45,206 nt of DNA from NCBI GenBank assembly GCA_945865315.1, contig CAMBDK010000013.1:1-45206 (forward strand). Direction: 5' to 3'. Of this stretch, positions 8,003 to 13,159 are shown piece by piece (positions within the stretch are counted from its first letter, which is position 1; every line of letters begins with the position of its first letter). This stretch comes from Chitinophaga pinensis (GTDB lineage Bacteria > Bacteroidota > Bacteroidia > 2-12-FULL-35-15). The position numbers were made by a program, and so were the translations under genes. The notes under the pieces were generated by a model. That model was not told the DNA's origin, ran no database searches, and saw nothing but the letters and a program-made list of their open reading frames with translations.

Positions 8003-8040
8003 CTTAAGTAATCAATATTTGATTATTTTTGGCCCTCAAA

Positions 8041-8880
8041 ATGAAAAAGGGAAAATTTAAAAAAAACAGCATTAAAAATTTCTGTTGTGCTATATTGCTC
8101 TTGTTTCTGTTTATGCCTGCTTTAATCCTTTCCCAAGAAGTGGTAAAGGTTAATATTACATTAAAATTAATAATTAAGGAAGGGGATTTAAAGAATTCAC
8201 AAATCACCATTACCAAGATGGGAGTGCCCTATAAAGTTATTGAGCCAGGTCAAGAGATAAATGTTTTCGACTTACCATTGGGAACAGAATTTACGTTTAC
8301 ATTAACCAAAATAGGCTATAACACCAAAAGGGTATTAATAAACACTAATGTTCCAGCAAATAGAGAAAAAGGGACTTTTGCAAAACATATTTTTGAAGTG
8401 GTGTTAGAAAAGAAAGTAGGGAAACTGGAAGACAATTACATACAATTATTAGGTAAATTTTCTTACAGCGCTGCCAAAGGTGATTTTGACAAAGATTACC
8501 CAAGCCCTTCGGATAAAAACCAGAAGACAGAACCAGCAATTACCCAAAATAAAAAAACAACACCAAATAACATAAGCAATTCAATTGCCAATTCAAGCGC
8601 TCCAATAAAAAACAAAACGCCAATTTCTAAGGAAATAAATACTTCGAGTAAGGATATTAATCAAACTGGGAATAAACCTGAAATTTATTCGAATAAACCA
8701 ATGATTAAAAGTAAGGAGGAAAAAATAATACAGGAAGACTATAGGAAATTAACTATAATAACGATTAAAATTGATGAAAAAGTTTATGTATTTATAAAGG
8801 AGCAATACAACTGGGGAACCTATTATTATAAAGATGGCAAAAACATTACAGAAAGTACATTTTTATTTGAAACTCAGTAA
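8041..8880 (+). CDS. Secreted protein with PEGA-like beta domain, function unknown
   Basis: From ATG 8041 this is a 279-residue protein; an in-frame TTG at 8029 is possible but adds only MALK before a normal signal peptide. The signal peptide covers about 1-32 (hydrophobic core AILLLFLFMPALILS, then QEVVK). Residues about 33-125 form a PEGA/carboxypeptidase-regulatory-like beta domain (VNITLKLIIKEGDLKNSQI, TKIGYNTKRVLI). Together with the trailing GKFSYSAAKGDFDKDY it resembles a domain I recall from secreted Bacteroidota proteins. A low-complexity Asn/Lys/Ser linker (about 145-225) precedes a small conserved-looking end (ITIKIDEKVYVFIKEQYNWG). It is probably periplasmic. A family 1 element sits directly upstream, and the yfiR-like operon follows after a family 3 element. 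Confidence 0.65.
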   Translation: MKKGKFKKNSIKNFCCAILLLFLFMPALILSQEVVKVNITLKLIIKEGDLKNSQITITKMGVPYKVIEPGQEINVFDLPLGTEFTFTLTKIGYNTKRVLINTNVPANREKGTFAKHIFEVVLEKKVGKLEDNYIQLLGKFSYSAAKGDFDKDYPSPSDKNQKTEPAITQNKKTTPNNISNSIANSSAPIKNKTPISKEINTSSKDINQTGNKPEIYSNKPMIKSKEEKIIQEDYRKLTIITIKIDEKVYVFIKEQYNWGTYYYKDGKNITESTFLFETQ

Positions 8881-8915
8881 AATATTTTTTATTCAGCAAA
8901 AAAAATATTTTTTTT
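8879..8915 (+). terminator. Possible AT-only terminator after the PEGA-like gene
   Basis: Arms at 8879-8890 and 8900-8911 form a 12-bp stem followed by a T-run (8908-8915). The stem contains no GC pair, so its strength is doubtful. Confidence 0.35.
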
Positions 8916-8937
8916 ACATCCAATTTCTTTTTGTTTA

Positions 8938-9089
8938 ATACCAAGCTAATTCATACTAACTTTTTACCTCTTCGTAAGTAAAAAAATCACTTCGGTTTGT
9001 TAATACTTGAATATATTCCATAGAAAAAATTGATATTGTTTGAGATTAAGCGTATCTTTACTTTATAAAATTATGAAATAGCTTGGTAT
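8938..9089 (+). mobile_element. MITE-like element, family 3 (single copy)
   Basis: A 152-bp non-coding stretch bounded by 18-bp terminal inverted repeats with 17 matches: ATACCAAGCTAATTCATA (8938-8955) and the inverse of ATACCAAGCTATTTCATA (9072-9089). It is flanked by TTA direct repeats (8935-8937 and 9090-9092), the same target size as the family 2 elements. No open frame of note lies inside. The right end includes the TTG (9083-9085) that serves as the -33 element of the next operon. Confidence 0.65.
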
Positions 9090-9114
9090 TTATTACTAAA
9101 AAAATATATATTTG
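9083..9114 (+). promoter_or_regulatory. Promoter of the yfiR-TPR-spoIIE operon
   Basis: TTG (9083-9085), a 21-bp spacer and TATATTTG (9107-9114) match the Bacteroidota promoter consensus. The -33 half lies inside the terminal repeat of the family 3 element, and the -7 half lies outside it. The leader to ATG 9167 is about 45 nt. Confidence 0.7.
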
Positions 9115-9166
9115 TGAACGTAATGTTAAATTGATAGAAATTTAATTTTATTGCAGGCTTTGCTTA

Positions 9167-9697
9167 ATGAAAAAACTCCTACTAATATTAACTTCTTTTA
9201 TACTTTTCACATCCTCTACTGTGGAAAAAAGTGACCTATCGGAACAAGTGAATGCCAGAATTAAATCTATTTACATTTATAATTTTACCAAATATATTGA
9301 ATGGCCTGAAGATTATAAAGAAGGAAACTTTGTAATTGGATTTATAGGTTCTAATACGTCACTTTTAACTGAATTGTCGAAAATGGCAGGAACCAAACAA
9401 GTTGGAAATCAAGCTATTCAAATTAGAAATATAAGTAGCATTGATAATTCCGATAAATTCAATATCATTTATATTTTAACCGAAAAATCTGTTCAACTTT
9501 CTGAAGTACTAAGTAAAATGAAAGGGAAAAGCACCTTAATTATTACTGATAAGCCCGGCTTAGCCAAGCAGGGCGCATGTATTAATTTTGTGGTTGTTGA
9601 CAGTAAACAAAAAATAGAATTGAATAAAACAAATATAGCAAAGAGTAATTTAAAAGTAGCTACCACATTAGTGACAATGGCGACAGAGGTAAATTAG
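9167..9697 (+). CDS. YfiR-family (DUF4154) periplasmic protein
   Basis: A 176-residue protein with a signal peptide (about 1-18) and one YfiR/DUF4154 domain. The family pattern is clear: IKSIYIYNFTKYIEWPED near the start, FVIGFIGSN, VGNQAIQIRNIS, FNIIYIL, STLIITDKPGLAKQGACINF and KIELNKTNIAKSNLKVATTL to the end. In Pseudomonas, YfiR is the periplasmic repressor of the HAMP-GGDEF diguanylate cyclase YfiN. Here no GGDEF protein is nearby; the third gene of the operon is a HAMP-SpoIIE phosphatase with a periplasmic sensor domain, which makes it the likely partner (inference). The redox-active Cys pairs of Pseudomonas YfiR are missing, since only one Cys (in GACINF) remains. The gene lies 53 bp before the TPR gene. 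Confidence 0.85.
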   Translation: MKKLLLILTSFILFTSSTVEKSDLSEQVNARIKSIYIYNFTKYIEWPEDYKEGNFVIGFIGSNTSLLTELSKMAGTKQVGNQAIQIRNISSIDNSDKFNIIYILTEKSVQLSEVLSKMKGKSTLIITDKPGLAKQGACINFVVVDSKQKIELNKTNIAKSNLKVATTLVTMATEVN

Positions 9698-9750
9698 AAT
9701 TTTAATTTTTTTTTAATTGTTTAAAATTGTGCATTTATTAGCAATTAACG

Positions 9751-10659
9751 ATGATAAAGGTAAATAAAATAAGAACAATCATTTTTGGAGTTTTGCTTTT
9801 GATAGCAATAACTTCAAATGCGCAGCAGGATAAAGTTACTGCTGCCTATGAGTTCTTGCAACAAAACGAAATTGATAGCGCAAAAGCTAATATTGATATT
9901 GCCGTGCTTCATCCAGAAACAGCCTCAGATCCTCAGGCATGGTATGTTCATGGCTTTGTTTATAAAACAATTTTCATGAAAAATGAAAAAAACAACAAAC
10001 AATCACCAGCAAGAATAGTAGCATTAAAATCATTTAAAAAGGCAAATTCATTAAACCCTGATAAGGAAGATTACCTTGAAAACATTGAAAACATTAAACT
10101 TTTAATTGGCACTTTAAATAATCACGCCAGCGAATTGCTTACTCCTGCTAACTATAAAATAGCTATAAAACTTTTTAATACCTTTCAGGAGTATAATAAA
10201 TTAGTAGATCCCTCCACACAAACATTTCAATCCAATCAAATTGCATTTGATTTAGCTCTTGTGGCTGTTTTTAATTCTATTTTAGAAAAAGCCAAAACAG
10301 ACTCTGTTAAAAAACAAAAATTTATAGCACTTTCAAAATCTATTTATAATAAAGTTTTGAAGCTTGACCCTGAAAATGTATCTGCTAATTACGGCATGGC
10401 GATATTATTTTATAATCAAGCCGTAGATCTTGTTCTCAACACTCCTTTGGATGAAGGTTTAACAACGTTAAATATTATGCTCGACAATTCGAAGGAATTA
10501 TCAAAAGCCTCGCTACCATTTATGCAAAAAGCATACGAATTAGATCCTAGTCGTACAGCAACATTGGAAGGTTTGGCTGGAATTTATAATATTTTGCATG
10601 AAGAAGAAAAGTCTATGGAATTCCGACGCAAAAAAGCAGAATTAGAAATGAATAGGTAA
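9751..10659 (+). CDS. Secreted TPR-repeat protein
   Basis: A 302-residue protein with a signal peptide (about 1-24, ending TSNAQQ) and helical tetratricopeptide-type repeats over most of its length. Recognisable units include ALKSFKKANSLNPDKEDYLENIENI (in two parts: ALKSFKKANSLNPDK, then the next helix), SKSIYNKVLKLDPENVSANYGMAILFY (same remark) and PFMQKAYELDPSRTATLEGLAGIY. It should act as a periplasmic protein-binding scaffold. It sits between the yfiR-like gene and the HAMP-SpoIIE gene with short gaps and no terminator, so co-transcription is likely. A link between sensor and regulator is possible but not shown. Confidence 0.75.
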   Translation: MIKVNKIRTIIFGVLLLIAITSNAQQDKVTAAYEFLQQNEIDSAKANIDIAVLHPETASDPQAWYVHGFVYKTIFMKNEKNNKQSPARIVALKSFKKANSLNPDKEDYLENIENIKLLIGTLNNHASELLTPANYKIAIKLFNTFQEYNKLVDPSTQTFQSNQIAFDLALVAVFNSILEKAKTDSVKKQKFIALSKSIYNKVLKLDPENVSANYGMAILFYNQAVDLVLNTPLDEGLTTLNIMLDNSKELSKASLPFMQKAYELDPSRTATLEGLAGIYNILHEEEKSMEFRRKKAELEMNR

Positions 10660-10732
10660 GATTCATTTGCACAAACCAAAAAAAATATTGCATAAAATTA
10701 ATGAATTATTAATTTTAGCATAAAATCATAAT

Positions 10733-12529
10733 ATGAATTTCAGATTTACAATTGGCAAAAAAATAGCATTGGGATTTGGTGTAATTGTTTTTTTGACAAT
10801 TGTTTCATTTTATTTCACAAACTATACGCTTAAAAACAGTCGTGAAAAAACCAGAGAAGTTATTGAAACATACAATCCATCAGTAGATGCGCTGAAGGAG
10901 TTAGATAATTTTTTATACAAAACTAGATTAGGAATTAACGAATGGACTTCTTTATTTAAAGAGGATTTACCTCAAAAAAGGGAGTTAACTCGACTTATAA
11001 ATATAGAATATCCTGCCTTAAAAGCAAAAATTGTTCAATATTCTACCAAATGGAAGGATGGGGAACAAGAAAGTATTCGCGCGATATTTACTTTATTAGA
11101 TCATTTGATCGAATATTATAAAGAGCAAATTATGATGCCACTTACTACTTTCGATGATCATAATGATCCTTTAATAAAATTTATGGCAGATCAAGCACTC
11201 GAAGACTCCTATAGTGATTACTTACCTATTACATTAAAATTAAAAGAGCTCATAGACGAACAAAATTCAAACGCTGATAAAAACTCTAAAGAGATGTTTG
11301 ATTCTTTTAGTTTTTTGAATATAATAGTTATTTCGCTTGGAATCATATTATTTTTAGGAGGTATTTTAATTGCTGGATTTACAATAAAATCCATTGTTCA
11401 GCCTATACAACAGTTAAAGAAAATATTACTAATGATGGGGAAAGGCATTTTACCGCCAGATCGCATAAAAGACCGTAATGATGAAATTGGGGAGATGTCG
11501 GTTGCGCTTAATGATTTAGTAGATGGCATGGAAAGAACTACGCAATTTGCAAAACAAGTAGGATCGGGTAATTTTAATTCGAACTACAAGCCTTTAAGTG
11601 TAGAGGATACTTTGGGTGCGGCGCTAATAAAAATGCGTGAAGATTTGCGCGAAAATGAACGTGTACTTGAAGCCAAAGTTATAGAACGTACAGAAAAGGT
11701 AGTTTCTCAAAAAGAAGAAATAGAAGCTAAAAATGGAGAATTGGAAATTCTATTTAAACATGTTACTGATAGTATAAAATATGCAAAACGAATTCAAGAG
11801 GCTATTTTACCGCCGGATAGTCTTGTAAAATCAATATTACCTAACTCTTTTGTACTATACAAACCTAAAGATATTGTAAGTGGCGATTTTTATTGGATAG
11901 ATAAAAAAAATGGGAAAGCAATGTTTGCTGCAGTAGATTGTACTGGACATGGGGTACCCGGTGCTTTTATGTCGATAGTTGGATATAATATATTAAAACA
12001 ATCAGTAAATACAAATGAATCTACTACTACGCCAGCGCTTATACTTGATAAATTAAATGAAGGAGTGAGCGAAACACTGCATCATGGTGGTCGTAGCCAG
12101 GATGAAGAGCAGTCGAAAGATGGAATGGATATTTCCTTGTGCACCATAGACTTTGAAACACTAGAATTACAATATGCAGGCGCATATAATCCATTATATA
12201 TAATTCGTAATGGGCAATTATTAATTACAAAAGCTAATAAATTCCCTATTGGATTATTTTTAGGAGAAGAGAAAAAGAAATTTACTAACCATACGATACA
12301 GCTAGAAAAAGGCGATTCGGTGTATATTTTCTCGGATGGTTATTCCGATCAGTTTGGAGGCCCCCATGGAAGAAAATTTATGGCGCCTAACTTTCGCCAA
12401 TTACTTCTGGATAATGAAAAACAGTCCATGGCAAAACAAAAAGAAATCATGAACAAAACTATTGAAGATTGGCGTGGTGAGCATGATCAGGTAGATGATA
12501 TTTTAGTAATTGGAGTGAAAATTTCTTAA
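10733..12529 (+). CDS. Membrane HAMP-SpoIIE (PPM-type) serine phosphatase
   Basis: A 598-residue inner-membrane signalling protein. TM1 lies at about 11-31 and TM2 at about 194-217, enclosing a helical periplasmic domain of about 160 residues like the four-helix sensors of chemoreceptors. A HAMP domain follows (about 217-270), then a coiled coil (about 300-345, KVIERTEKVVSQKEEIEAKN) and a SpoIIE/PP2C phosphatase domain (about 350-598). Metal-binding acidic residues are present: D385 in SGDFYW, D402 in DCTGHGVPGAF, the Asp of FSDGYSDQFGG and the paired Asp of QVDDILVIG. The predicted output is dephosphorylation of Ser/Thr in a cytoplasmic partner, classically an anti-anti-sigma (STAS) protein, but none is encoded here. 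It is the last gene of the yfiR-TPR-spoIIE operon; the gap to the TPR gene is 73 bp. Confidence 0.9.
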   Translation: MNFRFTIGKKIALGFGVIVFLTIVSFYFTNYTLKNSREKTREVIETYNPSVDALKELDNFLYKTRLGINEWTSLFKEDLPQKRELTRLINIEYPALKAKIVQYSTKWKDGEQESIRAIFTLLDHLIEYYKEQIMMPLTTFDDHNDPLIKFMADQALEDSYSDYLPITLKLKELIDEQNSNADKNSKEMFDSFSFLNIIVISLGIILFLGGILIAGFTIKSIVQPIQQLKKILLMMGKGILPPDRIKDRNDEIGEMSVALNDLVDGMERTTQFAKQVGSGNFNSNYKPLSVEDTLGAALIKMREDLRENERVLEAKVIERTEKVVSQKEEIEAKNGELEILFKHVTDSIKYAKRIQEAILPPDSLVKSILPNSFVLYKPKDIVSGDFYWIDKKNGKAMFAAVDCTGHGVPGAFMSIVGYNILKQSVNTNESTTTPALILDKLNEGVSETLHHGGRSQDEEQSKDGMDISLCTIDFETLELQYAGAYNPLYIIRNGQLLITKANKFPIGLFLGEEKKKFTNHTIQLEKGDSVYIFSDGYSDQFGGPHGRKFMAPNFRQLLLDNEKQSMAKQKEIMNKTIEDWRGEHDQVDDILVIGVKIS

Positions 12530-12581
12530 ATAAAAAATTATTTTTTTTGTTTTGTATTTTAAAGAATAATTAAAAAAAACT

Positions 12582-12589
12582 TACTTTTG
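12582..12589 (+). promoter_or_regulatory. -7 element before the DUF6580 gene
   Basis: TACTTTTG matches TAnnTTTG, 30 bp before the ATG at 12620. No TTG lies at the expected distance, so the -33 half is not supported. Confidence 0.45.
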
Positions 12590-12619
12590 TTATTATTAAT
12601 AAATTAATAAATTTTTGAG

Positions 12620-13159
12620 ATGACTAAGAATTCAAAAAAAACAAGTGCAAGTTTTATTTTTATTGCATCTACTATTTTAATAGCTGCCGCGAGTCGTTTG
12701 TTTCCGCACATACCAAACTTTACTCCTATTGCTGCTATGGCATTGTTTGGAGGGGTTTATTTTTCAGACAAACGTTTAGCAATAGTGCTTCCTTTAATTG
12801 CTATGATTTTGAGTGATATAGCAATACAGTTAATCTATGGATGGGGCTTTCATGACACTATTATTTATGTTTATGTAGCTTTTATTTTAACGTCCTTCAT
12901 TGGAATAATGCTAAGAACTAAGGTAGGCTTACTTTCTGTTGCCTCAGGTTCTATAATATCATCTATTTTATTTTTTATTATAACGAACTTTGGAGTATGG
13001 GCCGCCTCAGGCTTTCAATTGGGAATTAATGGGTTAAATGCTACCTATCTATTAGGTATACCATTTTTTGCTCCAACATTGATAGGTGATTTATTTTTTA
13101 ATGGAATATTATTTGGTTCGTTTTATTGGTTATTCTCCAAAACATATAAAATTGCTTAG
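12620..13159 (+). CDS. DUF6580-type multi-pass membrane protein
   Basis: A 179-residue protein with about five transmembrane segments. The N-terminal signature AASRLFPHIPNFTPIAAMALFGGVYF, read here as SRLFPHIPNFTPIAAMALFG plus the next segment, belongs to a family named DUF6580 (putative transport protein, similar in outline to ECF S-components). Other conserved-looking parts are LIAMILSDIAIQL and the C-terminal PTLIGDLFFNGILFG. The substrate is unknown. The last base of its TAG stop (13157-13159) is the first base of the family 2 repeat element, so that element begins exactly at the gene's end. Confidence 0.75.
   Translation: MTKNSKKTSASFIFIASTILIAAASRLFPHIPNFTPIAAMALFGGVYFSDKRLAIVLPLIAMILSDIAIQLIYGWGFHDTIIYVYVAFILTSFIGIMLRTKVGLLSVASGSIISSILFFIITNFGVWAASGFQLGINGLNATYLLGIPFFAPTLIGDLFFNGILFGSFYWLFSKTYKIA

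Follow-up and report, generated by a model that had tools for sequence, protein, structure and literature searches.

A conserved YfiR-TPR-phosphatase operon of Bacteroidota and its possible role in the periplasmic gating of a PPM phosphatase

The window analysed here, a stretch of 45,206 nucleotides from a Chitinophaga pinensis assembly (contig CAMBDK010000013.1), carries three consecutive genes that encode a YfiR-like protein of the DUF4154 family, a secreted tetratricopeptide repeat (TPR)-like protein, and a membrane phosphatase in which a periplasmic sensor is joined through a HAMP domain to a SpoIIE-type PPM domain. On balance, we favour a reading in which this trio is a tripartite periplasmic system gating the PPM phosphatase via its helical sensor. 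The findings suggest that a regulator known from cyclic-di-GMP control here governs protein dephosphorylation. The more general proposal, which we regard as evenly poised, is that recognition by YfiR-type proteins extends to a second receptor class of unrelated structure, four-helix-bundle sensors in place of PAS/CHASE8, and that, together with a TPR protein of their own, they gate a PPM phosphatase running partner switching, in bacteria that mostly lack GGDEF domains. If true, the YfiR brake, which has been studied on a diguanylate cyclase, would serve generally as a periplasmic input module, with serine/threonine dephosphorylation also under its control, a concrete input would be assigned to one of the ~20 SpoIIE phosphatases that are orphans in such a genome, and the YfiR-receptor interface would become testable in a second receptor fold.

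The arrangement is conserved well beyond the window, in many environmental members of the Bacteroidota. Contigs of public genomes were scanned with YfiR as the sole query and the best 80 loci were kept; the query was an alignment of trio YfiRs, so these loci sample that subfamily and not all DUF4154 proteins. The order YfiR-TPR-phosphatase, on one strand, is found in 79 of the 80, including loci that carry as much of it as their contig holds. The loci are labelled Flavobacteriales, Cytophagales, Sphingobacteriaceae, Chitinophaga or unclassified Bacteroidota, and all but one are labelled metagenome-assembled genomes (MAGs). The window's order was sampled with 36 genomes, which the tool counted as one genus; DUF4154 is present in 30 of them and the YfiR-TPR arrangement in 29, among which the phosphatase follows wherever the contig is long enough. 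A diverged trio in another order (L233) sits on a very long branch of the YfiR tree. Conservation of adjacent DUF4154 and HAMP-SpoIIE genes beyond this genome, named as a check in an original prediction made from the window's sequence, is therefore well documented. The genes that flank the trio differ widely (divergent extracytoplasmic function (ECF) sigma/anti-sigma genes, ferritin-type genes, response regulators and others), and gene order is fixed only within it. Many of the 80 loci do come from related lineages, as would be expected if the genes were chance neighbours or had been inherited purely vertically in an arrangement devoid of functional meaning, but the trio stays whole despite reshuffled flanks and down to the ~31% identity that L233 retains over the sensor half, which makes such an explanation very improbable. 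In an even phylum sample of 395 genomes, the alignment of the TPR protein finds one strong match beyond the window's own (G080), the remainder being weak and typical of generic TPR proteins; the trio is therefore confined to certain lineages.

The first gene encodes a secreted, periplasmic member of the DUF4154/YfiR-HmsC family (PF13689; E 3.6e-32, 111.8 bits against a cut-off of 24.9) and is the only DUF4154 gene to which the profile matches in the window's genome. Its AlphaFold2 (AF2) model, with a predicted local distance difference test (pLDDT) score of 90, has Pseudomonas aeruginosa YfiR as its top structural match (4zhu_B; Z 18.8, root-mean-square deviation (rmsd) 2.3, 144 residues aligned), the runner-up fold group reaching Z ~13, and Foldseek returns E 5.2e-7 for the match to the solved YfiR. 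The model also resembles one lobe of binding proteins (3lkv, 3lft). Two NCBIfam models stay below their thresholds, with 22.6 bits for the sequest_YfiR equivalog, which requires 85, and 104.8 bits for the TOL_0243 YfiR-like family, whose cut-off is 125. Residue equivalences to P. aeruginosa YfiR were mapped through the PDB match of a broader YfiR alignment, and conservation was counted over 66 trios. All 66 have E at the position equivalent to E163, and all 66 have F, I or Y at the one equivalent to F162; in P. aeruginosa, both residues lie within the proposed YfiN- and YfiB-binding surface (PMC3375315, PMC4887326). The paired cysteines of P. aeruginosa YfiR are C71-C110 and C145-C152 (PMC4655355). 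The window protein has a single Cys, C138, which is present in 1 of the 66 relatives; the C71 and C152 equivalents (58 and 140) are Cys in none of the 66 trio YfiRs, and 37 of them keep a Cys at the C110 equivalent (98). Both known YfiR disulfides therefore cannot form, which agrees with the earlier suggestion that redox control of the Pseudomonas kind seems lost.

Judged by its profile matches (Pfam SpoIIE, E 2e-20; HAMP, E 4.8e-7) and its metal-binding aspartates, the third protein belongs to the PPM/SpoIIE serine/threonine phosphatases. The motifs SGDF, DxTGHG, SDG and DD are invariant in all 66 trios, as are the motif residues D385, D402, T404, G405, H406, G407, D535, D588 and D589. Together with the YfiR fold, this confirms the YfiR identity and the HAMP-PPM output that had been read from the window at the outset. 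The AF2 prediction for residues 1-276 (pLDDT 86; helices 7-73, 80-104, 109-134 and 146-236) depicts the sensor as an up-down four-helix bundle flanked by two transmembrane (TM) helices and leading into HAMP; a weak Pfam match to 4HB_MCP covers residues 5-187 (E 0.0086). The nearest folds are the sensor domains of Vc1313, NarQ, MCP2201 and TorS, with Z 15.6 and rmsd 1.9 for 8bsa and Z 13.9 and rmsd 2.0 for 6xyn (NarQ), each over 155 residues. The match list also includes TorS-TorT (Z 13.1) and LytS-XylFII (Z 13.9), bundles which, according to their entry titles, were solved with a periplasmic binding-protein partner. These systems resemble the trio in sensor fold and in having a periplasmic partner related to binding-protein lobes; unlike it, they are histidine kinases served by full two-lobed binding proteins, and the YfiR-sensor contact is here predicted by analogy. 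Helical bundles give high background Z scores, and the matches to the predicted sensor support its fold and topology, not its function or common descent. A CHASE8-like sensor was ruled out by the lack of a Pfam match together with the all-helical prediction, the fold search alone being insufficient to exclude it. Within the phosphatase, conservation peaks in the coiled coil that connects HAMP to the PPM domain (mean entropy 0.86 vs 1.94 for the sensor). This is in line with an idea from work on Bacillus subtilis SpoIIE and RsbU, in which regulatory elements beside the PPM domain serve as a switch of activity (PMC5468089, PMC12143880).

DUF4154 is present in 39 of the 395 genomes of the phylum sample, and most of these genes have a TonB-receptor-like gene on one side and a gene for a membrane histidine kinase on the other. 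Two such kinases from the window's own order carry CHASE8, the sensor domain type of YfiN. In L236:5079-7409 and L240:3024-4964, both checked with Pfam, a single protein joins YfiR to a histidine kinase of the HisKA/HATPase type and is encoded 3′ of a TonB-receptor-like gene, and L238 and L239 look similar by motif and length; YfiR domains can therefore serve directly as receptor inputs. The original prediction had listed as a finding against it that yfiR might be conserved with a histidine-kinase partner in other genomes. Such partners do exist, but for other YfiR subfamilies that are placed apart on the tree. In L185 and L227, YfiR immediately precedes a membrane protein in which a trio-type sensor and HAMP are followed by GAF-PAS rather than SpoIIE, and the TPR gene is missing from both loci. 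In L185:2010-5504, from a Bacteroidales MAG, two tandem YfiR genes and a gene for a small secreted protein precede the sensor-HAMP-GAF-PAS gene, whose product carries no recognised catalytic domain and matches the trio sensor (A3n) at 2e-45; the L227 pair is similar. In the YfiR tree, a quick tree with modest support, the trio YfiRs cluster with those of L185 and L227 (SH-aLRT 90) and are separate from the YfiRs of CHASE8 kinases. This suggests that the YfiR lineage tracks the periplasmic sensor rather than the cytoplasmic output, as direct recognition of the sensor by YfiR predicts. YfiR and sensor distances also correlate more closely than the linker and catalytic domain can account for (partial r 0.39, permutation p ~0.001). 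Direct binding of YfiR to the sensor therefore appears likely, and is the part of the proposal that we hold with most confidence.

The strongest distance correlation links YfiR with the TPR protein (partial r 0.57), and there are loci, such as L038, in which YfiR adjoins a TonB-receptor-like gene but no kinase. Both observations would fit a periplasmic YfiR-TPR pair whose main task is another one, such as envelope or surface-protein upkeep, the phosphatase being merely co-transcribed for the same stress and responding to a small ligand of its own without binding YfiR; small-ligand binding is indeed frequent in such four-helix sensors (Vc1313, MCP2201, NarQ and Tsr in the match list). We consider this explanation rather improbable, since YfiR adjoins the same sensor in L185 and L227 even though the TPR gene is missing, so that the YfiR-sensor linkage is independent of the TPR protein, and since fusions of YfiR to kinases exist. 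The TPR protein is itself a constant component, with orthologues in 79/79 trio loci. It has a Sec signal ending in ...NAQQ, without a lipobox Cys, and an invariant predicted cleavage site (A24-Q25), while all Pfam matches to its TPR repeats fall under the curated cut-offs (best 5e-4).

Altogether, the favoured gating model, in which the operon would signal from the envelope to the cytoplasm, would operate as follows. The YfiR-like and TPR proteins would be exported to the periplasm, where the former would dock on the four-helix bundle of the phosphatase and lock one of its states. The TPR protein would be the third periplasmic partner, probably tuning the availability of YfiR, as YfiB does in Pseudomonas; this role is proposed tentatively. 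The original prediction had envelope state as the possible input and the TPR protein as a possible scaffold. Release or rearrangement of YfiR would alter the helix bundle, HAMP and the coiled coil, and thereby switch the dimeric PPM domain, which would dephosphorylate a STAS-fold phosphoprotein, most likely a SiaC-like protein phosphorylated by SiaB-like kinases, or else a classical STAS anti-anti-sigma factor. Whether YfiR would repress or activate the phosphatase is close to a coin toss, repression being the version adopted here.

The genome inventory bears on this last step. No GGDEF match is found in the window's 98%-complete genome, and the domain is absent from 34 of the 36 genomes of the order. 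The same 3.3-Mb genome has ~21 SpoIIE genes (23 matches, some of which are pieces), several of which share the motif PKDIVSGDFYW, along with 5 SiaC and 4 SiaB domain matches, 2 STAS proteins and one RsbW-type kinase, a HATPase_c_2 protein of 134 aa (E 4.2e-22). SiaC is found in 34/36 genomes of the order. The NCBIfam model of SiaA (NF038263) matches residues 266-597 of the phosphatase at E 1e-63 with 216 bits, short of the cut-off of 700 and leaving the sensor half unmatched. Most of the genome's other phosphatases that were tested score 1e-45 to 1e-53 with this model, and an RsbU-like one 1e-9. A SiaC-type substrate is favoured because the catalytic half matches SiaA better than the other phosphatases do. 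It is at least as likely as a classical STAS/anti-sigma target, and is the better, if non-specific, guess, although its probability falls a little short of even. Elsewhere in this genome (G000), on contig C152 (L252:1492-3031, minus strand), a gene whose 373-aa product has two SiaB-family kinase domains in tandem and a SiaC gene are convergent to a TPR-SpoIIE gene; this cluster is, from its gene content, likely a SiaABC-type module without a cyclase.

The target named in the original prediction was of the STAS/anti-sigma kind, and candidate proteins for it do exist. In classical partner switching, the phosphatase would act on an RsbV-like STAS anti-anti-sigma factor bound by the one RsbW-like kinase of the genome and would thereby control a sigma factor, with YfiR as the periplasmic gate. 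The two STAS proteins and the HATPase_c_2 protein fit this scheme, as does the ECF sigma/zf-HC2 anti-sigma pair that adjoins the trio in ~29/76 loci. However, the anti-sigma factor of that pair is of the zf-HC2/TonB_C and not the RsbW type, the pair is missing beside the window's trio, SiaA is the best-scoring match of the catalytic half, and SiaB and SiaC genes are more numerous than those for STAS and RsbW, so that classical partner switching seems an unlikely, if serious, competitor. In P. aeruginosa SiaABCD, the partner switch operates on SiaC, acting with the cyclase SiaD (PMC7647112). The window's genome is alike in having a SiaA-type membrane HAMP-PP2C phosphatase as well as members of the SiaB and SiaC families, whereas the trio operon has YfiR and TPR genes in place of SiaB/C/D and the genome has no SiaD (GGDEF). 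With SiaA-, SiaB- and SiaC-like proteins all present, YfiR could in principle still serve cyclic-di-GMP, the phosphatase feeding through SiaC into a remote SiaD-like cyclase, but GGDEF occurs in only 2 of the 36 genomes of the order and this route has hardly any probability left. The classical SiaABCD system with cyclic-di-GMP output was accordingly rejected for a genome without a GGDEF match.

Several observations weigh against the gating model. The sequence link to the solved YfiR is only marginal (E 0.0084 with the broader YfiR alignment; the trio YfiR alignment gave no YfiR match among PDB sequences), and the assignment therefore rests on structure. With corrected distances, the YfiR-sensor correlation (0.69) is not clearly above that between sensor and catalytic domain (0.67; 28 of 60 bootstraps), which makes it weak. 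Co-conservation in one operon would also fit action at a distance or mere co-regulation. The SiaC assignment is not specific, as most of the tested phosphatases among the ~21 SpoIIE genes match SiaA too, and a trio-bearing relative, the 87%-complete G028, gives no SiaC match.

Among the closest known systems is YfiBNR (TpbB) of P. aeruginosa, with which the trio shares a YfiR fold in the periplasm next to an inner-membrane HAMP signalling protein, a three-component make-up and the F162/E163 equivalents. It differs in that the output is a PPM phosphatase instead of the GGDEF domain of YfiN, the sensor is a four-helix bundle and not the PAS/CHASE8 domain thought to be bound by YfiR, a secreted TPR protein stands where YfiBNR has the Pal-like lipoprotein YfiB, and the trio YfiRs lack paired Cys; no OmpA/Pal (YfiB-type) Pfam match is found in the trio proteins or the immediate neighbours scanned. 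The original idea of YfiN-like control with a swapped output thus holds for the output, in a genome without GGDEF, and fails for the sensor. Lacking the YfiN-type sensor, GGDEF, YfiB, the Cys pairs and a score above the equivalog cut-off, the trio is not a YfiBNR system, yet by analogy it plausibly works in a similar way. Malone et al. (2012) had put forward a modular YfiR-YfiN[PAS/HAMP] core and found histidine kinase, HPT, GGDEF-EAL and methyl-accepting chemotaxis protein (MCP) outputs (PMC3375315). The trio agrees with this proposal in tying YfiR to a non-GGDEF output, as do the loci with a TonB receptor, YfiR and a CHASE8 kinase, and departs from it in that PPM phosphatase outputs are not mentioned there and the core sensor is PAS rather than a four-helix bundle (PMC3375315). 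Relative to that work, the trio adds a phosphatase output, a different fold of the sensor and a TPR protein as constant partner. A literature search, outside of which most subscription journals lie, returned no paper with both YfiR and SpoIIE.

The sequence indicates that the three genes are one operon behind a Bacteroidota-type promoter (Table 1). The layout had been described correctly, with gaps of 53 bp (yfiR/TPR) and 73 bp (TPR/phosphatase) and no terminator between the genes; no terminator-like site is found in window positions 8700-12900. Across the loci, the corresponding gaps have medians of 12.5 and 24 bp. A single promoter had also been claimed, with the feature starting at 9083, and this position turns out to be the -33 element of the Bacteroidota-type promoter. 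A generic sigma-70 promoter was dropped in favour of that motif, as the scan gave no excess (23 matches vs 23.8 in shuffles). Among 77 trio loci, 23 have the Bacteroidota motif class 5′ of yfiR against 2.8 expected from Markov-1 resampling, an ~8-fold enrichment, and the motif is absent from the gaps inside the trio in these loci.

Table 1. Coordinates of the trio in the window and predicted domains of the phosphatase
Feature	Position	Strand	Detail and basis
Bacteroidota-type promoter	9083-9114	+	TTG (9083-9085), N21, TATATTTG (9107-9114); from sequence
YfiR/DUF4154-like gene	9167-9697	+	176 aa; open reading frame (ORF) and Pfam
TPR-like secreted protein gene	9751-10659	+	302 aa; ORF
HAMP-SpoIIE membrane phosphatase gene	10733-12529	+	598 aa; ORF and Pfam
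Phosphatase TM1			precedes the bundle
Phosphatase periplasmic four-helix bundle	residues ~31-195
Phosphatase TM2			between bundle and HAMP
Phosphatase HAMP	residues 216-266
Phosphatase coiled coil	residues ~270-375
Phosphatase SpoIIE/PPM	residues 393-597

The surroundings of the trio and other DUF4154 genes of the order add some minor observations. A divergent ECF sigma gene with a zf-HC2/TonB_C anti-sigma gene lies directly 5′ of the trio in ~29/76 loci (e.g. L135:2331-4243); the pair is absent beside the window's trio, and it is possible that it regulates the trio where present. In the window, positions 8029-8880, on the same strand 5′ of the trio, encode a secreted 283-aa protein without a Pfam or NCBIfam match. 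The gene directly 3′ of the trio encodes, in L134:3572-5941 and elsewhere, a large secreted protein that carries a CHU_C type IX secretion signal, and relatives of this protein occupy the place in several loci. Lastly, L074 and L076-L080, from the window's order, hold a separate DUF4154 class of ~230-240 aa whose members begin with a lipobox-like SCV(S/T)KK signal and lie in clusters that have no sensor kinase.

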